Below are positions 14,773 through 33,010 of a stretch of 41,117 nucleotides of DNA, one piece after another. The position numbers and the translations under genes were made by a program. Numbering within the stretch: position 1 is the stretch's first letter; each line of letters opens with the position of its first letter. The notes below the pieces were generated by a model that saw only the letters and a list, made by a program, of their open reading frames with translations, had not been told where the DNA came from and ran no database searches. The DNA is from Fimbriimonadales bacterium (GTDB lineage Bacteria; Armatimonadota; Fimbriimonadia; Fimbriimonadales; Fimbriimonadaceae), in the NCBI GenBank assembly GCA_026418055.1, contig JAOACB010000010.1:23927-65043 (forward strand), in the 5' to 3' direction.

Positions 14773-17322
14773 ATGCATCTGCAACTGGTCGCGTTGGCTC
14801 TCTTGGCGTGGGGCGGCGGGGGAGCGCCTCCCTCGGTAGGTCCGTTTCGCCCGGGTCTGCCGCCGCTTCCGATCCCGAGGGGTCCGAAGACCGAGACGAT
14901 TCCCGGCTACGTGCTGGTCAAGACCTCGCAGGGAACCGCACGGGCGGTGTCCTCCCTCGCCCTGCAGCCGATCGCTCCGCCCGTGTCTCTGGTGCCGGGA
15001 GGGCGCCTGGTGAGCCGAATCGCCGACACCGGCTGGACGTTGTGGGCTCTGCCGCGTGGCCAATCCGTGGAAACCGCGATCCGCGAGGCGAGGCGCAACC
15101 CGTTGGTCGCCTACGCCCAACCCTTGAACCGGATCTATCCGCTTTGGGAGGAGCCCAACGATCCCGACTTCCGCGCCATCGAGCGGTCCCCGGACCTCAT
15201 CATGGGGCTCGAGGGCGAGGAAGGCGAGTTCCGTCGCCTGTGGCACCTCACCGACACGCTCGCCGAAGAGGCTTGGTCGAACTTTCCGGACCGGTGGTGG
15301 ACCGCGCTCACCAAGCCGGCTGGCTCTCCGGTGATCGCCGTCGTCGACACCGGCTGCGACATGAACCACCCGGACTTCCGCAACGCGGGCGGAACCAGCA
15401 GCAACGTCGCCAACGGGGGGCAGCTGGATTGGAGCCGCTCGAAGCAGTTTCGGCTCGGCGCGGTTTTCCCCTCCGGCTCGCCGGAGGACCGGCACGGGCA
15501 CGGGACGCATGTGGCCGGGCTGGCTTTGGCGTCCGGCAACAACGGAGGGTTCGACGGCCACGGCGTGATCGGCACGGGCTACAACGCCACGGGCATGATC
15601 CTGCGCGTGTTCGACGACAGCGGCACCGGAACAGACGCCGACGCTGCCGCGGCCATCTTCTACGCCGCCGACAACGGCGCCGACATCATCAACCTTAGCC
15701 TCGGCACCGAGAACTACTCGCAGATCTTCCAGGATGCCGTCACCTACGCCTTCCAGAAGGGCTGCCTGGTGGTGGCCGCCGGCAACGAGGACGGCGGCGG
15801 CGGCGGAGACCTGGGTCCGATCTACCCGGCGGCCTGCAGCGGCTCGCTGGGAGTGTCGGCCAACGGCCCCGATCTGATCCCGGCCACATCGACCTACAGC
15901 GGATTCGGCTACTACGTCGACGTCGCCGCGCCGGGCGGGGACGCGATCATCGCGCCGGACCTCAGCTCCTTCAAGATCCAGTTCGTCTTCTCGACGGCGA
16001 TGAGGACGCCGGGCACGCTGTGGAACCTCAGCCAGCAGGGCGTGCTGTATCCACCGTACAACCTGAACTACGCCTACCTCGCCGGCACGAGCATGGCCAC
16101 GCCCATCGTGGCTGGAGCTGCGGCGCTGTTCTTGGACAAGTTCGGTCTGCGTCGCGACTCGGGGTGGGCGAACGTGCGCGCCTACCGAGCCATCGAGCGC
16201 TCGGCGATCGGTGTCATGGGCGCCCCGTACGGCGGCTGGGAGCCCTACCAGGGCTACGGATCGCTGAACATCGCGGCTCTGCTGGAGGAGGACGACTTCC
16301 GAGGCGCCGAGACGGGCGCCGTGGAGGGCATCGTGTACTACGGCGCGACGCCGGTGGCGAACGTTTCCGTGCGCGCGAGGCTCGTGTCGGGCGGAATCAC
16401 CTACACCACCACCACGCAGCGGGATGGCACCTACCGGTTCGAGGCGCTGCCGCCGGGGGTTTACCAGGTGACCGCCGCGCCTTTCGGAGCCGCCAAGACC
16501 AAGCGGACGGTGGTGCACGCGGGTAGCGACACCCCCGGGTTCGACTTCTGGTGCGGAACGTTCACTTGGGACGACACCGACCCCACCATCGTGCGCTTCC
16601 AGCTCGCGGGGGATCCCGAGCCCAACCGCCTGGTCCTGCGGCACTGGGCGTACGACACAGAGACGGGCCTCGACCGGTTGGTGGTGCGCATCGGCACGAC
16701 GGCGGGCGGCACCGACGTGCTCGACGACACCGAGGTCGTGATCGACGGCCCCGAGTTCGAGCTCAGCGGGTTCACCCTGCCGAGCGGCACGAGCTACCTG
16801 AGGGCGACTTACACGGCGGGTTCCGGCAGGACCTCGAGCGTGACCATCCCCATCAACTTGGCGACCGCCCGGACGGTTTCGGGAACGGTGATCCTGGGAG
16901 ACTTCGTCGGGTCGCTCGCCGGCATCCCCGTCGAGGTGCAGATCCGTAACCCGGGCTCGACCGTGGCGGTGGAGACGCACACGGTTCTGCTGTCCGCGAC
17001 GGGCGGCTTCAGCCTCACCACGACGCGGAGCGGCACCTTCGACCTGGCGTTCAAGGCCAGCCACTGGCTCCGCCAGAAGGTCGCGAACGTCGCACTGGTG
17101 GGCTCGACGGTGTCGGGCCTGCTGGTCTCGCTGCCGAACGGCGACTGCAACGGGGACAACACGGTGAACCTAGCCGACCTCAACGCGATCTCGAGAGCTT
17201 GGCGGTCGGTGCCGGGCGGGGCGAACTGGGACCCGAACGCCGACCTGAACGGCGACCGCACCGTGAACCTAGCGGACCGGAACATCGTGGCCCGCAACTG
17301 GCGGATGTCGGGAGCGCCCTGA
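14773..17322 (+). CDS. Subtilisin-like (S8) secreted protease with C-terminal dockerin-like module
   Basis: The precursor of about 849 residues has a signal sequence (MHLQLVALALLAWGGGG), a propeptide of ~150 residues (GYVLVKTSQG..., AYAQPLNRIYP), and an S8 catalytic domain with Asp192 in VVDTGCDMNHPDF, His243 in HGHGTHVAGLA, Asn in AAGNEDGG and Ser440 in AGTSMATPIVAG. A carboxypeptidase-regulatory-like beta domain follows (VEGIVYYGATPVANVSVRAR, YRFEALPPGVYQVTA), then a beta domain with GTVILGDFVG, and finally two EF-hand-like loops (DCNGDNTVNLAD, DLNGDRTVNLAD). ATG 14773 starts the signal peptide properly; an in-frame upstream ATG at 14737 would spoil it. The C-terminal ~150 residues are shared with the next gene's product. 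Confidence 0.9.
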   Translation: MHLQLVALALLAWGGGGAPPSVGPFRPGLPPLPIPRGPKTETIPGYVLVKTSQGTARAVSSLALQPIAPPVSLVPGGRLVSRIADTGWTLWALPRGQSVETAIREARRNPLVAYAQPLNRIYPLWEEPNDPDFRAIERSPDLIMGLEGEEGEFRRLWHLTDTLAEEAWSNFPDRWWTALTKPAGSPVIAVVDTGCDMNHPDFRNAGGTSSNVANGGQLDWSRSKQFRLGAVFPSGSPEDRHGHGTHVAGLALASGNNGGFDGHGVIGTGYNATGMILRVFDDSGTGTDADAAAAIFYAADNGADIINLSLGTENYSQIFQDAVTYAFQKGCLVVAAGNEDGGGGGDLGPIYPAACSGSLGVSANGPDLIPATSTYSGFGYYVDVAAPGGDAIIAPDLSSFKIQFVFSTAMRTPGTLWNLSQQGVLYPPYNLNYAYLAGTSMATPIVAGAAALFLDKFGLRRDSGWANVRAYRAIERSAIGVMGAPYGGWEPYQGYGSLNIAALLEEDDFRGAETGAVEGIVYYGATPVANVSVRARLVSGGITYTTTTQRDGTYRFEALPPGVYQVTAAPFGAAKTKRTVVHAGSDTPGFDFWCGTFTWDDTDPTIVRFQLAGDPEPNRLVLRHWAYDTETGLDRLVVRIGTTAGGTDVLDDTEVVIDGPEFELSGFTLPSGTSYLRATYTAGSGRTSSVTIPINLATARTVSGTVILGDFVGSLAGIPVEVQIRNPGSTVAVETHTVLLSATGGFSLTTTRSGTFDLAFKASHWLRQKVANVALVGSTVSGLLVSLPNGDCNGDNTVNLADLNAISRAWRSVPGGANWDPNADLNGDRTVNLADRNIVARNWRMSGAP
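16873..17319 (+). repeat. C-terminal module, copy 1 (beta domain plus dockerin-like pair of Ca loops)
   Basis: About 149 codons encode GTVILGDFVG, VEVQIRNPGSTVAVETHT, FDLAFKASHWLRQKVANVAL, SLPNGDCNGDN and WRMSGAP. The last 64 residues match copy 2 (at 19302) at 48 positions by hand alignment. Each loop follows D-x-N-G-D-x-x-V-N-x-x-D, the calcium-binding pattern of dockerins. Confidence 0.8.
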
Positions 17323-17327
17323 TCGAA

Positions 17328-17345
17328 CCCCGCACATTTGCGGGG
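17328..17345. terminator. Short hairpin after the first subtilase gene
   Basis: CCCCGC, loop ACATTT, GCGGGG starts six bases after the TGA. The stem has only six base pairs and no T-run follows, so termination is uncertain. Confidence 0.4.
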
Positions 17346-17375
17346 CCCACCCGAGCAGGGGACCTGTAGGACAAT

Positions 17376-17399
17376 GGAGGGCGGAGTGGTTCGCCCTCC
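17376..17399 (+). other. Hairpin in the leader of the second subtilase gene
   Basis: GGAGGGCG, an 8-base loop GAGTGGTT, CGCCCTCC form a perfect 8-base stem ending 15 bases before the ATG at 17415. The sequence GGAGGG within the stem is the only Shine-Dalgarno-like element nearby, so it would be sequestered. It could be a terminator of the previous gene or a leader structure. Confidence 0.45.
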
Positions 17400-17414
17400 G
17401 CTTGGCTGTTCATC

Positions 17415-19751
17415 ATGCTTGCGAAAAGGATCCGAAGCAGCGCAGCGATCGCGGCGGTGTCTCTCGCCGCGATCGCTCCCTCTCAAACGACGACCAACGT
17501 TCCGGCCCTGCTGGAACTGGCGGAACGCCTCCAGCGCGTGGAGCGGACCCAGCAGCTCGCCATCCGCCTGCTGGCACCGCAGCTCTGGCAGCCCGCTCCC
17601 AGGGAGCTGCCCAACGGCGCGGTCTTCCAGCGGTTCTGGAGGTTCCCGGGCTGGGACGGCGTGTACGTGACCTGCAACCTGAACGCCGCCAGGACCATCA
17701 ACGCCGACAAGGTCTGGCCGGGAGGCTCGGCGGGCTTGGCCCTCACGGGCAGCGGCATCGATCTGGGTGTTTGGGACAGCGGCAGCGTGCGCACGACCCA
17801 TCGGGAGTTCGGCTCTCGCGCCCAGAACATCGACGGCGTCGCCCATCACTGGCACGCGACGCACGTTGGGGGAACGATGGCCGCCGCGGGAGTGGACCCC
17901 TCGGCCAAAGGCATGTCCTTCGAGGCGAGCCTGCTCAGCCTCGACTGGAACAGCGACTCCTCCGAAATGGCGACCCGCGCTGCCGGTGGCTTGCGGGTGT
18001 CCAACCACTCGTACTCCGTGATCTATGACAACGGCGCGAACTGGAACTACGGCTTCTACGATCCCGAGGCCCAGACTTGGGACCAGATCGCCTTCGACGC
18101 CCCGTTCTACACCATCGTCAAGTCCGCCGGCAACGACCAGTCGAGGAACACCAAGGGTGGATACGACACGATCCCCACGAGCGGCACCGCCAAGAACATC
18201 CTCACGATCGGCGCGGTGAGCAGCATCTCCGGAGGCTACTCCGGCCCGTCATCGGTCGTGATGAGCAACTTCAGCAGCTGGGGTCCCACCGACGATGGTC
18301 GGATCAAGCCGGACCTGGTGACCCCCGGCGTCAATCTGTATTCCACCTTCAACACCTCCGACAGCGCCTACGCGGTGGCCACGGGGACGTCGATGGCGGC
18401 GCCCGTTGCGGCGGGAGCCGTGGGCCTGTTGGTGCGCCACCAGCGCAACCTGCAAGGAGGCCAGGACCTCCGCTCGTCGACGATGAAGGCCCTTCTGATC
18501 GCCACGGCCAACGAGGCCGGGCCGGCGGACGGGCCGGACTACCGCTTCGGCTGGGGCCTGTTGGACGTGCGCCGAGCCGCGGAGGTGCTGACCGCCAACG
18601 CCTCCACGCCGGGAATCGTGCGGGAGGACGCGCTGTCCAACGGCGAGGCCAAGTCGTACTTCTTCCAATCGAACGGTTCCCCCGTGCGCGTGGCGCTGGC
18701 CTGGACCGACCGTCCGGGGACCGTCTCGCCCTATGCCACCAACGATCCCACGGACCTGCGCCTCGTGAACGACCTGGATCTGAGGGTGTTCGTGAACGGC
18801 GTGGAATGGCTGCCGTGGGTTCTCAACCCGGCCTCCCCGGCGGCGAACGCCACCCGCGGAGACAACTTCCGCGACAACGTGGAGCGGGTCGACGTGCCCT
18901 CTCCCGGCGCCGCCACCGTGGAGGTGCGTGTGACGCACAAGGGCTCGCTTGCCGGTGGCTCGCAGGCCTTCGGCCTCGTCGTGCTGGGCCTGACCCCGGC
19001 GGCTCCGGTGCGCGTTTCGGCGCTCTCGCTGAATCCGACCCAGGTGGTGGGAGGGGGCTCGTCGACCGGCACCGTCACGCTCACGGGCCCGGCGCCGAGC
19101 GGCGGAGCGGTGGTTTCCATCGCCAGCTCGAACCCGCCGGTGGCGTCCGCTCCGGCTACGGTGACGGTGCCCGCGGGCGCGACGCAGGCCAGCTTCACGG
19201 TGGCCACCTCGAGCGTGACCACGGCGACGGACGTGCGCATCGAGGCCAGCTACGGCGGCGGAACGGCCTCCGCGGATCTGCGCGTGCTGCCGGAGCAGGC
19301 GCTGACGGGAACGGGAGAGCTGCAGGACTTCAGCGGCGACCGAACGCAGGTCGATCTCACGCTCGAGATCCGCAATCCGGGCACCACTACCGTCGTGCAG
19401 TCCCTGTCGTTCCGTTTGGGGTCCTCCGGGGGGTTCCGCGTGGTCGCGAGCGTGGCTCCCGGCACCTACGACCTTGCGATCAAGGGAGGCACGTGGCTGC
19501 GCAAGGTTCTGCGGAACGTCTCGGTGGGCGCGAACGGCGCCGCGGGCCTGTCGTTCTCTCTGCCCAACGGGGACTGCAACGGCGACAACGTGATCAACCT
19601 GGCGGACCTCAACCTGATCTCAGCCGCCTGGAGGTCCCAGCCCGGCTCGTCCAACTGGGATCCCCGGGCGGACCTCAACGGCGACCTGAGGGTCAACCTG
19701 CTGGACCGCAACATCGTGTCGAAGAACTGGCGTCTTAGGGGAGACCCTTGA
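17415..19751 (+). CDS. Second subtilisin-like (S8) secreted protease with dockerin-like module
   Basis: The 778-residue precursor has a signal peptide (AAIAAVSLAAIAPSQ), a short pro-region, and a catalytic domain with Asp121 in VWDSGSVRTTHREFG, His150 in ATHVGGTMAA, Asn in SAGNDQSRN and Ser326 in GTSMAAPVAAGAVG. The Asp motif WDSG and HVGGT resemble KP-43-like bacterial subtilases rather than the DTG/HGTHVAG pattern of its neighbour. A jelly-roll-like P/C domain (VRVALAWTDRPG, LVNDLDLRVFVNG) and an Ig-like Ser/Thr-rich domain (LSLNPTQVVGGGSSTGTVTL) follow, then the same C-terminal module as the upstream subtilase. There is no clear Shine-Dalgarno before the ATG. The two proteases are not recent duplicates, because their catalytic domains differ while the C-termini match. 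Confidence 0.9.
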   Translation: MLAKRIRSSAAIAAVSLAAIAPSQTTTNVPALLELAERLQRVERTQQLAIRLLAPQLWQPAPRELPNGAVFQRFWRFPGWDGVYVTCNLNAARTINADKVWPGGSAGLALTGSGIDLGVWDSGSVRTTHREFGSRAQNIDGVAHHWHATHVGGTMAAAGVDPSAKGMSFEASLLSLDWNSDSSEMATRAAGGLRVSNHSYSVIYDNGANWNYGFYDPEAQTWDQIAFDAPFYTIVKSAGNDQSRNTKGGYDTIPTSGTAKNILTIGAVSSISGGYSGPSSVVMSNFSSWGPTDDGRIKPDLVTPGVNLYSTFNTSDSAYAVATGTSMAAPVAAGAVGLLVRHQRNLQGGQDLRSSTMKALLIATANEAGPADGPDYRFGWGLLDVRRAAEVLTANASTPGIVREDALSNGEAKSYFFQSNGSPVRVALAWTDRPGTVSPYATNDPTDLRLVNDLDLRVFVNGVEWLPWVLNPASPAANATRGDNFRDNVERVDVPSPGAATVEVRVTHKGSLAGGSQAFGLVVLGLTPAAPVRVSALSLNPTQVVGGGSSTGTVTLTGPAPSGGAVVSIASSNPPVASAPATVTVPAGATQASFTVATSSVTTATDVRIEASYGGGTASADLRVLPEQALTGTGELQDFSGDRTQVDLTLEIRNPGTTTVVQSLSFRLGSSGGFRVVASVAPGTYDLAIKGGTWLRKVLRNVSVGANGAAGLSFSLPNGDCNGDNVINLADLNLISAAWRSQPGSSNWDPRADLNGDLRVNLLDRNIVSKNWRLRGDP
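19302..19748 (+). repeat. C-terminal module, copy 2 (beta domain plus dockerin-like pair of Ca loops)
   Basis: About 149 codons encode LTGTGELQDFSG, LTLEIRNPGTTTVVQ, YDLAIKGGTWLRKVLRNVSV, SLPNGDCNGDN and WRLRGDP, colinear with copy 1 at 16873. Conservation is highest in the last 64 residues. Confidence 0.8.
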
Positions 19752-19842
19752 GGAAACGGGTTGGAATGTCGATCGCATTCGGCGTTTTCTCTGTTATTCT
19801 GAAGGTGTCGGGAGCGTGAGCTGCCGTGGGGTTGGTTTGGCT

Positions 19843-20550
19843 ATGGGCTTGAGAGGAATGGCTTGTGCCGCTTTCGCGGTCGGCTTGGCCGGGTCGCAGG
19901 CTCTCGCTGTGAGCGTGGAGTTCTTCTTCACCGACCCCACGGACGCGGCCAACACTCCCCTCACCCACCTCCAGATCGGAGGCGTGGGAACGGAGTTCAC
20001 GCTCAGCGTGTGGTTCAAGACAACGGGCTCTTGGAACCACTTGGGAGCCAACCTGTTCATCGGCTTCGACCGCACCAGCACCCATGGCTTGGGCGCATCG
20101 CCGTCGGACGGGTTGCTCGGCCTCGCTGGAACCCCCACGACCTCGCACGCCAACGTGAACTCGCTCTACGGCTTGTTCCCGCCGAACACCGGCGTGCTGG
20201 GCGGAGGAACAGACCCTGTGAGCGGCCCGGGCGAGCGCCCCTACGGCATCGAGTATCTGCTTCTGCTGAACAGCGGCGTGGACACGCCGACGCCCGATGG
20301 CACTCCGGTGCGTCTGCTCGACGTGAAGCTGAAGAACCTCGGCCTCCTTCCTGGGGAGACGTACAACGTGGTTCTGTACGACGCGGGGCGCGACATCGAA
20401 GGCACCACCTTCCTGTTCAACCTGAACACGGACGCGCTGCGCGGTGGAACCAGCACGCTGCAGGTGGAGGCCGTGCCGGAGCCGGCCACCTTGGCGGCGC
20501 TGGGCATCGGGTTGGGGTTCCTAGCGCGACGAAGGCGCAAGGGCGGCTGA
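19843..20550 (+). CDS. PEP-CTERM sorted surface protein, cohesin-like beta protein of unknown function
   Basis: The product of about 235 residues starts with a signal peptide (ACAAFAVGLAGSQALAVSVE), continues with a beta-rich region (FTLSVWFKTTGSWNHLGANL, VRLLDVKLKNLGLLPGETYN) and ends with AVPEPATLAALGIGLGFLAR plus an Arg/Lys cluster, a standard PEP-CTERM signal. The middle part, describing strands of the form 'F.LSVW...LGA.LFIGFD', is reminiscent of cohesin-like folds in other PEP-CTERM proteins, but this is only a visual impression. ATG 19843 gives a well-formed signal peptide; GTG 19816 is an alternative. Its stop is four bases from the stop of the convergent araC-type gene. Confidence 0.75.
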   Translation: MGLRGMACAAFAVGLAGSQALAVSVEFFFTDPTDAANTPLTHLQIGGVGTEFTLSVWFKTTGSWNHLGANLFIGFDRTSTHGLGASPSDGLLGLAGTPTTSHANVNSLYGLFPPNTGVLGGGTDPVSGPGERPYGIEYLLLLNSGVDTPTPDGTPVRLLDVKLKNLGLLPGETYNVVLYDAGRDIEGTTFLFNLNTDALRGGTSTLQVEAVPEPATLAALGIGLGFLARRRRKGG

Positions 20551-20554
20551 CCGC

Positions 20555-21421
20555 CTAGCCCTGCTCGGCGCGGAGCTCCGAGGGCAGCAGCCCGAGGTAC
20601 TCCTTGATGGATTCCCGAAGGCCTTGGGCGGTGCCGAACCCGCAGGACGTCGCGATCGAATCCACGGGCTCCTCCGTCGACGTCAGCTTCCGCACCGCCA
20701 GCTCGGTGCGGCACCGGTCCACGAACTCATGGAAGCCGTAGCCGACGAGGCTCTTGAACACGCGGGAGAAGTGGAACGGCGAGTAGCCTACGAAGTCCGC
20801 CCCCTCCTTGAGCGGCCACGGATGCTCGGGGTGCTCCTTCACCCGGTCGATCAGGGCGACGAGCATCGGCGGGAGGTCGCTCGGCAACGGCGTCAAACCC
20901 ACCGCGTCCTCGCTCTTCACGCATTCTCCCACGCCGCAGTGCGCGTAGGAGAACATCACCGGCAACACCCAGTCGGCTCCCCTGCGAGCGTCGGCCGCCA
21001 ACCGGTCGAGATCCGCCTCGCGCACGTGTTGGAATGGGGTGGAGAAGACCCCGTGCAGAACGTCGCCCGTCTTGGCCGAGCGCCGCTCCTTCTGGATCCA
21101 GCGGTGGAGGGCCGCGGTCGACTCCCCATGCCAAGCCATCACGTACATCTTGTGCTCGCCCCGGGCCAGGCTCAGCGCCACGGGGGCCGGACCGGACACG
21201 AGGCCCACGCTGGCTGGAGCGAGCACCGACCACCGGCCTTTGAGGCCCCGCCGGAGGAGCACGGTGCCCTTGCACACCCACAGCAGGGTGTGGACGTCTG
21301 CGGGCAACTCGAAGCGCACCAGAGTGGCCTGTTGCACCGAGCCGGTCCGCAACTGGAAGAGCTCTTGGTCGGTGTGGTACAGCTCGACGCTGCTGAGCGG
21401 ACAATTCTGGCCAAACCTCAT
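20555..21421 (-). CDS. AraC-family transcriptional regulator
   Basis: The 288-residue protein has an N-terminal ligand-binding cupin-like part (residues ~1-130: FELPADVHTLLWVCKGTVLL, LARGEHKMYVMAW) and two C-terminal helix-turn-helix motifs (WPLKEGADFVGYSPFHFSRV, PVDSIATSCGFGTAQGLRES) followed by YLGLLPSELR. Activators of this family bind DNA next to promoters in response to a small molecule, but the ligand is unknown. The second recognition helix GTAQGLRES is unlike the usual SQSYFSR pattern. The gene is divergent from asd; the 166-base gap holds its promoter and a nine-base inverted repeat. Confidence 0.85.
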   Translation of the reverse strand: MRFGQNCPLSSVELYHTDQELFQLRTGSVQQATLVRFELPADVHTLLWVCKGTVLLRRGLKGRWSVLAPASVGLVSGPAPVALSLARGEHKMYVMAWHGESTAALHRWIQKERRSAKTGDVLHGVFSTPFQHVREADLDRLAADARRGADWVLPVMFSYAHCGVGECVKSEDAVGLTPLPSDLPPMLVALIDRVKEHPEHPWPLKEGADFVGYSPFHFSRVFKSLVGYGFHEFVDRCRTELAVRKLTSTEEPVDSIATSCGFGTAQGLRESIKEYLGLLPSELRAEQG

Positions 21422-28811: not shown

Positions 28812-29263
28812 TCCAGCCCGGCCCTCCTGAGGGTGCTGGTGGTGGAGCGCCCGGGGACGGTGGGGAAGATCACCACCCGCCCTCCGTACGATCGCACGAG
28901 GGGAGCCTCGGGGAGGTCCTGCTCGCGATAGTCGCCGCCCTTCACGTGCACCTCGGGGCGGAGGAAGCGGATCAGCTCCTCGGGCGTGTCTTCGGCGAAG
29001 GCCACCACGGCGTCCACGGGCCGCAGGGCGGCCAGCAGCTCGGCGCGGTCCTCCAAGGGGTTCAGAGGCCGGTTCGGACCCTTGCCCAGACGCCGCACCG
29101 ACTCGTCGTCGTTGATTCCCACGATCAGCAGGTCGCCCAGGGCGCGAGCGGCTTCGAGCAACCGCAGGTGGCCGACGTGCAGCACATCGAACACGCCGTT
29201 GGTGAACGCGAGCTTCCGGCCTCGGCGCAAGGCGGCGGCCTCCTCCCAGCGCAACAGGCTCAC
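28808..29263 (-). CDS. D-glycero-beta-D-manno-heptose 1-phosphate adenylyltransferase (HldE C-terminal type)
   Basis: The 151-residue nucleotidyltransferase contains FTNGVFDVLHVGHLRLLEAA with the HxGH motif, GINDDESVRRLGKGPNRPLN, DAVVAFAEDTPEELIR and VHVKGGDYREQDL, ending with GRSTTSTLRR. These are the signature segments of the RfaE domain II, which activates heptose 1-phosphate to ADP-heptose (or CDP/GDP form). The kinase domain (HldE domain I) and other heptose genes (gmhA, gmhB, hldD) are not in the window. GTG at 29263 overlaps the stop of the glycosyltransferase gene. Confidence 0.88.
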   Translation of the reverse strand: MSLLRWEEAAALRRGRKLAFTNGVFDVLHVGHLRLLEAARALGDLLIVGINDDESVRRLGKGPNRPLNPLEDRAELLAALRPVDAVVAFAEDTPEELIRFLRPEVHVKGGDYREQDLPEAPLVRSYGGRVVIFPTVPGRSTTSTLRRAGLE

Positions 29264-30189
29264 GCCAACGCCTCCAGAACCTTGTCGGCGACTGCCTCGG
29301 GAGCGATGCGGTCCAGCCCCTCCGGCTCGTAGAGGCACCGGTGGATCTGGCCGTAGGGGCAGCTGCGCTGAGGTCGGGTGATCGAGTACAGGCCGATCGC
29401 GGGAACGCCGAGGGCGGCGGCGAGGTGGGTGCTGCCGGTGTCGCCGCCCACATGGGCCTTGGCCAGAGAGAGCAGCGCCACCAGCTCGCCGAGGCTTGTT
29501 TGCCCGCACAGGTTCGCGGCGCCTGAGCGGGTGGCCTCCAACGCCGCTCGCGCCGACGCGTGGTCGGATTCCGCCCGGCCCCCGATGAGCACCGTGCGCA
29601 ACCCTTGGAGGGCGAGCAGATCGATGAGCCTCCCGCAACGCTCGGAGGGCCATCGCTTGGTCGCCCAGGCCGCGCCCGGATTGAGCACGACGAACGGATC
29701 TCCGACGGCCAGCTTCGAGCGGACCGAGTCCAAGTCCTTCTCGGCGGGCCGCAGGCCGAAGTCGGCTTGGTGGGCGCTTCCGCCCGCTGCCCGGGCCACG
29801 TCCACGTACTGGTCGACGATGTGCGTGGAGCTGGGATCGGGAAGCACCGCCTGAGAGGCCAGCCATGAGCCCTCCCGTTGCCAGTGATAGCCGAGCTTGC
29901 GGCGGGCCCTCGCTCGGGCGACCACGATCGCGCTCTTCGCCAAGCCCTGCAGGTCGAGCGCGGCTTCGAACTCCTCGCCGAACACCGGCCAGGACTTCGG
30001 GTTCAACTGCGGCTTGGCCTCCACCACCTCGTCCACGTGGCGACAGAGCCGTGGCAGGGCGGCGAACCGGGGATCGCAAACCCAAACCACCCGGCAGCCC
30101 GGGTGGCCGGCCTTCAGCGCTCCGGCCGCGGGCAGGGAGCACACGACGTCGCCGAGCGCGCTGAGTCGGCTGATGAGGAAGCTAGGCAC
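29260..30189 (-). CDS. Family 9 glycosyltransferase (heptosyltransferase-like), copy 1
   Basis: The 309-residue protein has SRLSALGDVVCSLPAAGALK at the N-terminus, VLNPGAAWATKRWP in the middle and GDTGSTHLAAALGVPAIGLY near the end, the GT9 (ADP-heptose:LPS heptosyltransferase) pattern. It would add a sugar to the LPS core at the inner face of the membrane; sugar and acceptor are unknown. The GTG at 30189 overlaps the TAG of the second GT9 gene by eight bases. Confidence 0.88.
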   Translation of the reverse strand: MPSFLISRLSALGDVVCSLPAAGALKAGHPGCRVVWVCDPRFAALPRLCRHVDEVVEAKPQLNPKSWPVFGEEFEAALDLQGLAKSAIVVARARARRKLGYHWQREGSWLASQAVLPDPSSTHIVDQYVDVARAAGGSAHQADFGLRPAEKDLDSVRSKLAVGDPFVVLNPGAAWATKRWPSERCGRLIDLLALQGLRTVLIGGRAESDHASARAALEATRSGAANLCGQTSLGELVALLSLAKAHVGGDTGSTHLAAALGVPAIGLYSITRPQRSCPYGQIHRCLYEPEGLDRIAPEAVADKVLEALA

Positions 30190-31138
30190 GCAGCTCCCTC
30201 CACATCTGTTGGGCGGCGGCGAAGATCGCGCTCTGGGGCACCAGGGCGGCGTTGCCGCCGAGGCTGAGCACCTTGCCCCGCCCCCAATAGGGTCGGAACT
30301 TCTCTTGGGGCATGTGGCCGAACACCGTCACGGTGGGCACCCCCAGCGCCGAGGCGATGTGCGCTGTTCCGGTGTCGCCGCTCAGATGCAGCGCCGACAG
30401 CGCCAGGGCGGCCATGGTCTGGCGCAGCGGCAACCGACCGACCCAATCGATCGAGCCTGGCAGCTCCGGACTGGGGTCCCCCGGCCCTCCGAGGTAGCCC
30501 ACGGCGAGACCCTCTTTCATCAGCAACTCGCCGACCGTCCTCCACCGGTCGAGCGGAACCACCTTGTTGGGGTGTCCGGCGCCGACGGTGATCGTGACCA
30601 GCGGCCGGTCGGGCAGCTGCGCCTTCAGCGTCTCCCTCTCCGCCGTGAGATCGGGAAGCATCGGCGTCGGATCGCCGCTGGCGAAGCCCAGGTAGCCCAG
30701 GGTCTCCAGGTTCTGCTCGACCATGTGCTCGGCTCGGTGGGGATCGGGCCGGACGGGGTTCAGCGCTCGGGCGAGGCCGTCCGTGGCGCGCGCCGCAACC
30801 CTGCGGGCCGGTCGTGCGATGCGCAGGCAGAGGGCCGTCTTCGAGTGCCCTTGAAGGTCGATCCCGTAGTCGTACCCGCGCTCCCGCAACCGAAGGTAGA
30901 AGCGCATCTGCCTGGCGATGCCGGCGGGGGTCCAACGCAGCCGCTTCTCCTCCCGGCTGTCGAACGTCTCGAGGCCGTTCACCAGGCGCTCGGTGTCGAT
31001 CACGTCGGCGCACCGTCGGTCGACCACCCAGTCGATCACGGCCCCGGGCACCGAGCGCCGAATCCGCGACGCAACCGGCAGGGCCATCACGCAGTCGCCG
31101 ATCGCCGAGAAGCGGAGGATGAGGAACCTCGGTCCCAT
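30182..31138 (-). CDS. Family 9 glycosyltransferase (heptosyltransferase-like), copy 2
   Basis: A 318-residue GT9 enzyme: FLILRFSAIGDCVMALPVAS, YGIDLQGHSKTALC, VTITVGAGHPNKVVPLDRW and GDTGTAHIASALGVPTVTVF. Sequence is clearly different from the neighbouring GT9 gene, so the two probably make different linkages in the core oligosaccharide. The ATG overlaps the stop of the acyltransferase gene by one base (TGATG). Confidence 0.88.
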   Translation of the reverse strand: MGPRFLILRFSAIGDCVMALPVASRIRRSVPGAVIDWVVDRRCADVIDTERLVNGLETFDSREEKRLRWTPAGIARQMRFYLRLRERGYDYGIDLQGHSKTALCLRIARPARRVAARATDGLARALNPVRPDPHRAEHMVEQNLETLGYLGFASGDPTPMLPDLTAERETLKAQLPDRPLVTITVGAGHPNKVVPLDRWRTVGELLMKEGLAVGYLGGPGDPSPELPGSIDWVGRLPLRQTMAALALSALHLSGDTGTAHIASALGVPTVTVFGHMPQEKFRPYWGRGKVLSLGGNAALVPQSAIFAAAQQMWRELRA

Positions 31139-32037
31139 CACGCGATCCAACCCTTTCGTCGGGCGCTCTTCCATCGGTCGTGCAGCCAAAGATACTGTTC
31201 GGGCCAGCGTCGGATCAGGGACTCCAAGTCGCGGTGGAGGTCCTCCATGATCCGCTCCGGCTTCACGCCGCTCGCACGGTCGTACACTCGGTAGGGCAGG
31301 ATCTCGATGTGCAGGCGGCCCACGCCGGCGCTGATGCAGGCCAGCGGCAACAGAGGAGCTCCCGTGCGCAGGTGCAGCACGGCGGGCCCCAAGGCGGTTC
31401 CCGCCGGATGGCCGAAGAACGGCACGAAGGCCTCGTTGGAGTTCTGGTCCGGGAGAATGGCCACGACGCCGTTCGCCTTCAGCTTGGCCAGAACGGGTCG
31501 GGCGGCGTTGCCGCGGGGGATGACCTCCACGCCCGCGTGCCGCCGCATCCGCAGCACGAGGTCGTTCAGCTCCGAGTCGTTCGCGTCGCGGGCCACCACG
31601 CTCATCGGGAAGCCCGAGGCCGAGAACCATTGAGCGCCCCGCTCCCAGTTTCCCAGGTGGCCGGTGATCACCAGCACCCCACGGCCCAGTCCGAACGCCT
31701 CCTCCAGATGCTCCCTGCCTGCGGTGGTGGTGGTGCGCAAGACCTCCTCGTCGGAGCGGAGCTCGCTGCGCAGGAAGTCGGTTGCGTTTCTGCCGAAGTG
31801 CTCGAAGACCCGCAGGGCCAGAGCGCGGCGGTCCTCCTCGGAGAGTTCGGGAAACGCCAGCGCAAGGTTGGACAGCGCGCGCTCTCGGTGCTTGCGGGAA
31901 AGGCGGAACGCGAGCCGCCCCACCCGTTCGCCGGCTCGGGCTGCCTGCTCGGCGGATCGTCGCAAGCACCAGCGCTGGGCCCTTACGAACGCCCAGCTGC
32001 CGAGCCGCGTCGCAACCCTATTCAGCCTCAGCCTCAT
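31138..32037 (-). CDS. Lipid A biosynthesis acyltransferase, LpxL/HtrB family
   Basis: The 299-residue LABLAT-family protein has the catalytic HX4E motif at GHLGNWE (His127, Glu132), VARDANDSELNDLVLRMR, VEVIPRGNAAR, VAILPDQNSN and FFGHPAGTALGPAVL. Such enzymes transfer a secondary acyl chain to lipid A at the inner membrane. No strong N-terminal transmembrane helix is visible; there is a cationic region (RLRLNRVATRLG, RLSRKHRERA). It overlaps the 3' end of lpxK by 20 bases. ATG 32037 is preferred; the longer upstream frame is the shadow of lpxK. Confidence 0.88.
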   Translation of the reverse strand: MRLRLNRVATRLGSWAFVRAQRWCLRRSAEQAARAGERVGRLAFRLSRKHRERALSNLALAFPELSEEDRRALALRVFEHFGRNATDFLRSELRSDEEVLRTTTTAGREHLEEAFGLGRGVLVITGHLGNWERGAQWFSASGFPMSVVARDANDSELNDLVLRMRRHAGVEVIPRGNAARPVLAKLKANGVVAILPDQNSNEAFVPFFGHPAGTALGPAVLHLRTGAPLLPLACISAGVGRLHIEILPYRVYDRASGVKPERIMEDLHRDLESLIRRWPEQYLWLHDRWKSARRKGWIA

Positions 32038-33010
32038 GCAACCGTTCCACCAGCCAGCGCCGGAACTCCTCGGCCGGCTGGATCGAGACATCCCGAAGCG
32101 CGACGACCCAACGTCGGCCTGCAAGGTCCGGTCTGCGGCGGAGCTTGACCCAGTCCTTCGCCGTGACCACCACCGTCGAACCCGGCGGGACGCCATCCAG
32201 CAGGTTACCCGCGGACAGAGGGTCGTGGTCGGTCAGCGCGGCCAGGCCCCGCAGCCCCACGCCTGCCGCCCGCAGGTCGTCGGCGAAGCGATCCGGTCGA
32301 GCGATGGCGCACAGAGCCCAGGCGTCCTTCGGCGCCTCGGTGGGACGATCGGACTCCGCGTCCACGAACCGGAGCCCGCCGCAGGCTAGGTCGAAGCGGC
32401 CCGGCAGGATCAGGTCCGCGCGACTGCGGTTCCAACGGGGTTCGCGGTAGGGCCCCGCCGGCAGGCAGAGGCGGTTCGTCGGCGCGGGATCGTCCAGCGC
32501 GATGGTCGCGTGCTTGCGCAAGGGGAGGTGCTGCAAGCCGTCGTCCAGCACCAGCACGGCGTCCGGCGCGCGCTGGGCGCACAGCGCGGCCGCGGCGACG
32601 CGGTCGCGTCCCACCACCAGCGGCAGATCCGGCATCAGCCAGCGTGCCATCGCGGGTTCGTCTCCCCACTCAGCCGGGTCGAGATCTCCCTCGGGCGCCC
32701 ACGACGCGCCGCGCTGTCGGGGCGAGCCGTAGCCGCTGCAGGAGAGCACCGCCGGGCGCCCGGTCGATCGGAGCACCTGCGCCACGTGCAGGGCCGTCGG
32801 CGACTTGCCGGAGCCGCCGACCACCAGGTTTCCCACGCACACCACAGGCCTATGGGGGGACCGTGGCCGCTTCAGGCCGGACCGGTAGGCGGCGAGGTAG
32901 GCCTCCCAGCCGACGGCGTACAGCAGCGCGAGCGGAGCCAGCGCCGCGCGGGCGGTCCGGAAACGCAACGCCCGCCCATACCAAACCCGCTGCTCCCACC
33001 CCCCGGCCAT
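32018..33010 (-). CDS. lpxK: Tetraacyldisaccharide 4'-kinase
   Basis: The 330-residue kinase adds the 4'-phosphate to the lipid A precursor at the inner membrane. Seen are a hydrophobic N-terminal helix (LAPLALLYAVGWEAYLAAY), the Walker A GNLVVGGSGKSPT (residues 60-72, GGSGKSP instead of GGTGKTP), LSCSGYGSPRQR, GRDRVAAA, DDGLQHLPLRK and LTDHDPLSAG. First gene of the minus-strand envelope operon. CATACT lies eight bases before the ATG. It is divergent from mtaB. Confidence 0.92.
   Translation of the reverse strand: MAGGWEQRVWYGRALRFRTARAALAPLALLYAVGWEAYLAAYRSGLKRPRSPHRPVVCVGNLVVGGSGKSPTALHVAQVLRSTGRPAVLSCSGYGSPRQRGASWAPEGDLDPAEWGDEPAMARWLMPDLPLVVGRDRVAAAALCAQRAPDAVLVLDDGLQHLPLRKHATIALDDPAPTNRLCLPAGPYREPRWNRSRADLILPGRFDLACGGLRFVDAESDRPTEAPKDAWALCAIARPDRFADDLRAAGVGLRGLAALTDHDPLSAGNLLDGVPPGSTVVVTAKDWVKLRRRPDLAGRRWVVALRDVSIQPAEEFRRWLVERLHEAEAE

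Follow-up and report, generated by a model that had tools for sequence, protein, structure and literature searches.

Two unlike subtilases of a Fimbriimonadales bacterium share a C-terminal X-module-dockerin dyad, a probable docking tag with a candidate PEP-CTERM receptor next door

The window analysed here, a stretch of 41,117 nucleotides on contig 11 of a Fimbriimonadales bacterium (genome of 2.89 Mb in 135 contigs, 96.8% complete), encodes two neighbouring subtilases, P1 and P2, that end in a common module of about 149 residues. By sequence profile and predicted structure, this module is an X-module-dockerin dyad (XDoc) of the type II cohesin-dockerin kind, as anchors clostridial cellulosomes. 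The data make it very likely that XDoc is a docking tag with one partner type per genome. With less certainty they favour a system outside cellulosomes, in which XDoc-tagged exported proteins would dock onto cohesin-like receptors that are themselves sorted by PEP-CTERM signals. The parts of such a system are known, and their arrangement is new.

Identity of the shared module

P1 (14737..17322, + strand, 861 aa) is a secreted S8 subtilase with a fervidolysin-type propeptide and a CarboxypepD_reg domain, as read from its open reading frame (ORF) and Pfam matches, and has XDoc-bearing orthologues in three relatives (genomes G036, G029, and G007). P2 (17415..19751, + strand, 778 aa) is a secreted KP-43-like S8 subtilase according to its ORF, Pfam matches, and homologues. 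Both ORFs are open and both products match Pfam Peptidase_S8; the catalytic motifs are DTG/HGTHVAG in one subtilase and WDSG/ATHVGGT in the other. The best local alignment between the two scored 112 without the module versus 470 for the whole pair, in keeping with the first-pass annotation, which had described adjacent S8 proteases with unlike catalytic domains and a common C-terminal end. The C-terminal 149 (P1) and 147 (P2) residues were 53% identical, and alignment of the final 64 residues gave exactly the 48 identities that had been counted by hand. The motif 'EIRNPG' ascribed to both copies is present in P2, whereas P1 reads QIRNPG.

The two dockerin-type Ca loops proposed at the same time were recovered as Dockerin_1 matches (PF00404; 29.2 and 33.2 bits in P1 and P2, cut-off 22.9) with two Ca-loop/helix repeats. 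In P1, the X-module, a seven-stranded transthyretin/carboxypeptidase-regulatory-like beta domain placed by alignment, model, and structure match, spans 16873..17133 (+), and the dockerin (17134..17319, +; PF00404 and model) reaches the stop codon. Its Ca-binding loops, located by alignment and invariant D columns, lie at 17143..17178 (+, module D91-D102) and, by alignment, at 17242..17277 (+, D124-D135). In P2, alignment places the X-module at 19308..19562 (+) and the loops at 19572..19607 (+) and 19671..19706 (+), within a dockerin (19563..19748, +; PF00404) that likewise reaches the stop codon. In neither protein was the beta domain itself matched by Pfam or NCBIfam. The module as a whole is not covered by any NCBIfam model, and Por_Secre_tail, a family of sorting domains of the type IX secretion system (T9SS), had no match in P1 or P2.

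An alignment of 65 related modules (A2) was turned into a profile and searched against the complete set of PDB sequences. The top matches were X-dockerin dyads of cellulosome scaffoldins (4wi0_B, 2.1e-18; 4u3s_B; 2b59_B, 8e-17; 3kcp_A; 5g5d_B); they covered both domains (profile positions 30-147) and paired the module strand 'SHWLRK..NV' with 'ANYLTREIANV' of the scaffoldin X-module. The AlphaFold2 model formed one compact unit (pLDDT 97.7, pTM 0.90), so that the beta domain and the EF loops, which structure prediction had been expected to separate or join, belong together. Foldseek and VIA-align placed eight XDoc entries first (Z 14.7-16.0, 136-141 residues, 2.2-2.5 A), and the next-best fold was the transthyretin-like domain of carboxypeptidase D (Z 7.4). 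On these three lines, profile, model, and structure match, the beta domain is assigned as an X-module and the whole as an XDoc dyad. The earlier idea of a tag 'of its own kind' was therefore dropped, since the module is a recognisable XDoc (E 2e-18; Z 15-16 over 141 residues).

Dockerins bind cohesins in cellulosomes. The type II XDoc of cellulosome scaffoldins (CipA/ScaA, CipB) and the present module agree in their two domains, which are folded alike and packed in the same fixed way, are homologous in sequence along both parts, and have in common a C-terminal position, two Ca loops, and variable positions that coincide with cohesin-contact positions (PMC5141474). They differ in use: there, one or two scaffoldin-type proteins carry the dyad, whereas here up to more than 100 individual proteins end in it, in a diderm host with neither a cellulosome nor a Pfam cohesin.

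Distribution and recognition face of XDoc

A profile of the pair, run over the whole genome, found two copies, P1 and P2 only. The possibility that the module occurs in just these two genes is thus true inside this genome and false for the group. In a main set of 61 genomes (this one and 60 relatives), a narrow profile detected the module in 33, with copies ranging from 1-2 to at least 64, and a broad profile gave 131, 109, and 78 copies in three genomes. An even sample of the phylum had it in 38 of 161 genomes, with expansions in several families. The P1-P2 gene pair was also found in two close relatives, an uncultured Fimbriimonadaceae and Armatimonadetes UBA8783. A P2 homologue of Chthonomonas sp. 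UBA2387 (L245, 3863-6139; 42% identical), from a differently named Armatimonadota lineage, ends in XDoc as well.

Each of 193 distinct proteins from 30 genomes carried one module, which in 191 ended at most 8 residues from the stop. By a simple heuristic, 59 of the 65 complete ORFs with the module are predicted to have a signal peptide, compared with 35 of 236 other long ORFs, a set that includes many spurious genes. The profile search suggested by the first-pass annotation thus found many proteins with signal peptides that end in the module, in the relatives. The 94 passengers scanned contained 91 Pfam families, among them subtilase (11), glucose/sorbosone dehydrogenase (8), PPC (8), trypsins, reprolysins, and propellers. 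Proteases and dehydrogenases were the commonest, and no glycoside hydrolase was among the 25 commonest of these families. PEP-CTERM was present in 60 of the 61 genomes independent of XDoc copy number, with 23 matches in this genome. For this reason XDoc is used beside PEP-CTERM, as had been proposed, and a genome-wide replacement of one by the other is excluded.

XDoc copies were compared within and between the ten genomes with at least 7 sampled copies. X-modules were 27% identical within genomes and 25% between them, and dockerins 62% and 39%. Genome-informative columns clustered at repeat positions 7, 9, 10, 11, 13, 14, 16, 17, 20, and 21 (first loop Asp = 1; position 7 is above the threshold in repeat 1 and narrowly below it in repeat 2), and the strongest fell at the same loop-helix positions in both dockerin repeats. 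The repeat-1 consensus reads IGDYALLS..FG in G015, TIFDYLALS..FD in G025, DLSDYTIVV..FN in G036, DDSDLAAVL..FG in G037, and NLADLN.IS..WR in this genus. The ten positions were picked as genome-informative, and agreement between the repeats played no part in the choice; at these positions the two repeats agreed 77% of the time inside one protein, and comparing repeat 1 with repeat 2 across proteins gave 74% when both came from the same genome and 26% when they came from different genomes, as against 27%, 24%, and 20%, respectively, at other non-ligand positions. The face of the dockerin is therefore genome-specific and twofold symmetric. Its identity within a genome was independent of X-module identity and stayed at 72-75% even where X-modules were less than 20% identical.

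The variable face coincides with known contacts. Type II XDoc-cohesin contacts have been described for Ser108, Asn146/Leu147/Phe148, Gln145/Val115, His151/Ser121, and Asn122/Gly155/Gly125/Asn158 (PMC5141474); renumbered via the 2b59 alignment they become positions 7, 9-11, 17, and 21, all of which belong to the ten (probability 0.003 for randomly placed positions). Orthologues of P1 show the same behaviour for one protein. Between this genus, G036, G007, and G029 the P1 faces were 10-35% identical to each other, the within-genus pair aside, and those with a within-genome comparison matched the remaining XDocs of the genome they come from at 80-88% identity. G036 and G007 belong to one genus, yet their P1 faces differ.

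Module swapping or gene conversion had been offered to explain the likeness of the two ends. At shared dockerin residues, synonymous codon agreement was 0.45-0.58 against 0.42-0.53 expected from codon usage, an excess of 2-6 points present in all ten genomes, and X-modules were near expectation; of the residues that P1 and P2 share, 27 of 45 in the dockerin and 22 of 32 in the X-module are encoded by the same codon. Exchange in the distant past may account for the small excess. Because codon choice at synonymous sites of the shared dockerins is close to random, recent gene conversion is rejected as the cause of the uniformity. X-modules were also as diverged within as between genomes, and P1 and P2 each retain their own module version across three genomes of the genus, so the proposal was not supported. 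With synonymous agreement this close to expectation, selection at the protein level most likely maintains the face, which would follow if every tag of a genome had to fit one socket.

A cellulosome is excluded for this group: Pfam Cohesin had no match at cut-off in the 61 genomes, and the commonest passengers include no glycoside hydrolase. Relaxing the search to E<=10 in eleven XDoc genomes gave only two weak matches, judged chance and rejected by eye as GH2-like and alpha-2-macroglobulin-like proteins.

The PEP-CTERM neighbour of P2

A gene 65 bp downstream of P2 (19816..20550, +), whose place is conserved in the three genomes of the genus, codes for a signal peptide, a putative cohesin-like domain, and a PEP-CTERM sorting signal (20470..20538, +; PF07589, 27.3 bits, cut-off 20.7). 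Its central domain of about 187 residues has no Pfam match and is modelled as a cohesin-like jelly roll (19909..20469, +; predicted fold only, pLDDT 83.2, pTM 0.83). Foldseek returned 1qzn first (1.3e-4), with 3l8q, 6kgf, and 2vn5, at 1e-4 to 1e-3. VIA-align ranked the Clostridium perfringens cohesin 2vo8 best (Z 11.0, 121 residues, 2.5 A), then 2w1n, 2jh2, and 6kg8, and its first 26 rows were all cohesins. The two other genomes of the genus have the protein in the same position at 86% identity. The alternative left by the first-pass annotation, an ordinary dockerin with cohesin partners in the genome, accordingly fails for Pfam cohesins and gains a predicted cohesin-fold protein encoded next door. 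The model and the gene order make this neighbour a strong candidate for the XDoc partner in this genus.

When a profile of the candidate receptor was first searched, related proteins with PEP-CTERM came from G036, G015, and G025, and G004 contributed one with XDoc. Matches to M23-type peptidases (genus g37) and to a methyltransferase-like ORF (G045) were discarded as due to chance. Wider profiles extended the family to 8 of the 61 genomes, in five genera, all XDoc-bearing and with 1 to 15 copies, and found it in 0 of 28 XDoc-free genomes. In this genome the sole family member stands in one row with the only two XDoc genes, an arrangement kept in three genomes of the genus, and in G025 a member follows an XDoc gene directly on the same strand. 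The evidence from adjacency is limited to this direct same-strand order and to the uniqueness in this genome; adjacency in XDoc-rich genomes was kept out of the statistics because one XDoc per about 50 kb gives chance neighbours. Cohesin-like PEP-CTERM genes also form tandem arrays of four in G036 (C55:42985-46351; L281, L284, L288, L291), on a contig with two XDoc proteins of 1622 and 940 aa, and of three in G025 (C8:209791-212647; L282, L285, L289).

Several observations weigh against this neighbour as the receptor, or against extending its role to the phylum. Sequence similarity to cohesins was found neither with Pfam (PF00963) nor with hhalign against one CipA cohesin (checked against PDB 1aoh). 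Pilin and integrin beta-sandwiches reached Z 7.7-8.4 against the same model, so the cohesin match is clear and not overwhelming, and the candidate alone among the PEP-CTERM proteins of this genome was modelled. Family and XDoc co-occur (hypergeometric 0.005 by genome, 0.017 by genus), figures qualified by the fact that the wider profiles were built with matches from XDoc genomes. A weak terminator-like hairpin lies between P2 and the candidate gene (19763-19788; 3 such sites in the region, 3.2 expected). In G004 (L186/L280, C36) a 437-aa ORF carries XDoc in place of PEP-CTERM on a cohesin-like domain, which could be just another passenger; alternatively, this protein represents a minimal scaffoldin-like fusion or a swap of sorting tags. 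Finally, 25 of the 33 XDoc-bearing genomes, some with more than 100 copies, have no detectable family member and therefore need another or a more diverged receptor.

The surroundings of these genes show further features. The 92-bp gap between P1 and P2 contains a perfect 8-bp GC-rich inverted repeat (GGAGGGCG-8-CGCCCTCC, 17375-17398). An AraC-family regulator gene (20558-21421, -) is convergent with the three-gene row, stands at the same place in both relatives of the genus, and possibly controls the row. Several cohesin-like PEP-CTERM genes of different genomes (L285, L289, L287, L294) have near-identical starts: 'MKLNTRTLA' or 'MKLNSRTLA' is preceded by 'RGRGG', which gives the impression of joint conservation of the leader and the 5' untranslated DNA. 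Genes for a heptosyltransferase, a lipid A acyltransferase, and LpxK (29263-33010, -) make it very likely that the organism has an outer membrane bearing lipopolysaccharide, which is relevant to where a surface tag would act.

Surface docking and its alternatives

Among 70 scanned C-termini of P2 homologues (about 36-49% identical), most of them from Bacteroidota and other phyla, 55-58 carry a T9SS type A sorting domain, and thus XDoc occupies the place of the surface-sorting tag of other phyla. KP-43 subtilases are putative T9SS cargo (PMC11982257). Two P2 homologues from Zixibacteria and Phycisphaerae (L209, L214) end in plain dockerin-like repeats, with no evident X-module, where Bacteroidota have the T9SS domain. 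SprA_N had no match in the 61 genomes, in a search whose control was also empty. XDoc and the T9SS domain both sit at the extreme C-terminus of the same KP-43-type subtilase and serve many passengers; the T9SS domain is unrelated in sequence and has no dockerin. PEP-CTERM is likewise a C-terminal sorting signal on dozens of proteins of the same genomes, and is borne by the candidate receptor, but its short motif, transmembrane helix, and basic end are all lacking in XDoc, and the copy numbers of the two show no evident link.

We propose that exported proteins, here two subtilases, bear XDoc at the chain end as a docking tag. Outside the cell, the Ca-loaded dockerin, held by its X-module, would plug into a cohesin-like socket through the same helix face as clostridial dockerins. 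In this genome the socket would most likely be the PEP-CTERM protein downstream of P2, which the exosortase pathway may process and anchor to the envelope; an exosortase is presumably present, judging from the PEP-CTERM matches. By docking onto a PEP-CTERM-sorted receptor, XDoc would keep the enzyme at the cell surface and so do the job of T9SS sorting domains for the same subtilase family in Bacteroidota.

XDoc might instead be a surface-docking tag whose receptor is another protein, such as an unrecognised cohesin, an S-layer or an outer-membrane protein, the neighbour being an unrelated surface protein with a similar jelly roll. The many XDoc-rich genomes with no receptor family, the lack of sequence similarity between candidate and cohesins, and the occurrence of XDoc and PEP-CTERM on homologous domains in different genomes all favour such a receptor. 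We nevertheless regard it as less likely, given that cohesins are the best fold match of the neighbour, that across three genomes of the genus the single copy of the family adjoins the sole two XDoc genes, and that all 28 XDoc-free genomes lack the family. A free extracellular complex of secreted enzymes, rather than fixation to the cell, has a precedent in the 'planctosome', for which cohesin-dockerin pairs with peptidases have been proposed in Planctomycetes (PMC6461901), and the G004 protein joining a cohesin-like domain with XDoc resembles a small scaffoldin. It appears quite improbable here, however, as nearly all complete cohesin-like proteins found end in PEP-CTERM and a protein with several cohesin-like domains was not seen.

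Least probable is a module that has no partner and serves as a Ca-stabilised C-terminal cap, its uniformity within a genome being due to gene conversion or recent duplication. The dockerin synonymous excess in all ten genomes points in that direction, but it is small. In the same proteins, X-modules from one genome resemble each other no more than those from different genomes do, and the uniformity centres on the recognition face, where both halves show it. Docking onto PEP-CTERM-sorted cohesin-like receptors is the reading we prefer.

Cohesin-dockerin systems outside cellulose degradation are known from C. perfringens glycosidases, Archaeoglobus, ANME archaea, and the planctosome (PMC6461901, PMC9012536, PMC5244752), and the planctosome also has peptidases among its passengers (PMC6461901). 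Unlike these, the present tag is C-terminal and always includes an X-module, the tags far outnumber the receptors in most genomes, and the candidate receptor bears PEP-CTERM and is unrecognisable by sequence. The literature searched contained no account of PEP-CTERM combined with dockerins, nor of tagging at such a scale; one paper, on ANME archaea, deals with exosortase and with cohesin separately.

Many bacteria without cellulosomes have annotated dockerins, for most of which the docking partner is unknown. In the present tags the cohesin-contact positions carry a code that is specific to the genome and symmetric between the repeats, and an adjoining protein with a predicted cohesin fold and its own sorting signal, which escapes sequence profiles, provides a concrete candidate receptor. 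Looking among the PEP-CTERM neighbours of XDoc genes offers a way to find hidden cohesins, and the divergent faces offer new orthogonal plug-and-socket pairs for protein assembly. The data suggest how diderm bacteria of one phylum could retain numerous enzymes on the cell surface even though these do not each bear a known covalent sorting tag. Whether this amounts to general diderm surface display is evenly balanced in our judgement: scores of XDoc-ended secreted proteins would be captured by exosortase-anchored PEP-CTERM cohesin-like receptors, under a species-specific lock-and-key code in which the tags of any one genome would all change in concert and different genomes would drift apart.

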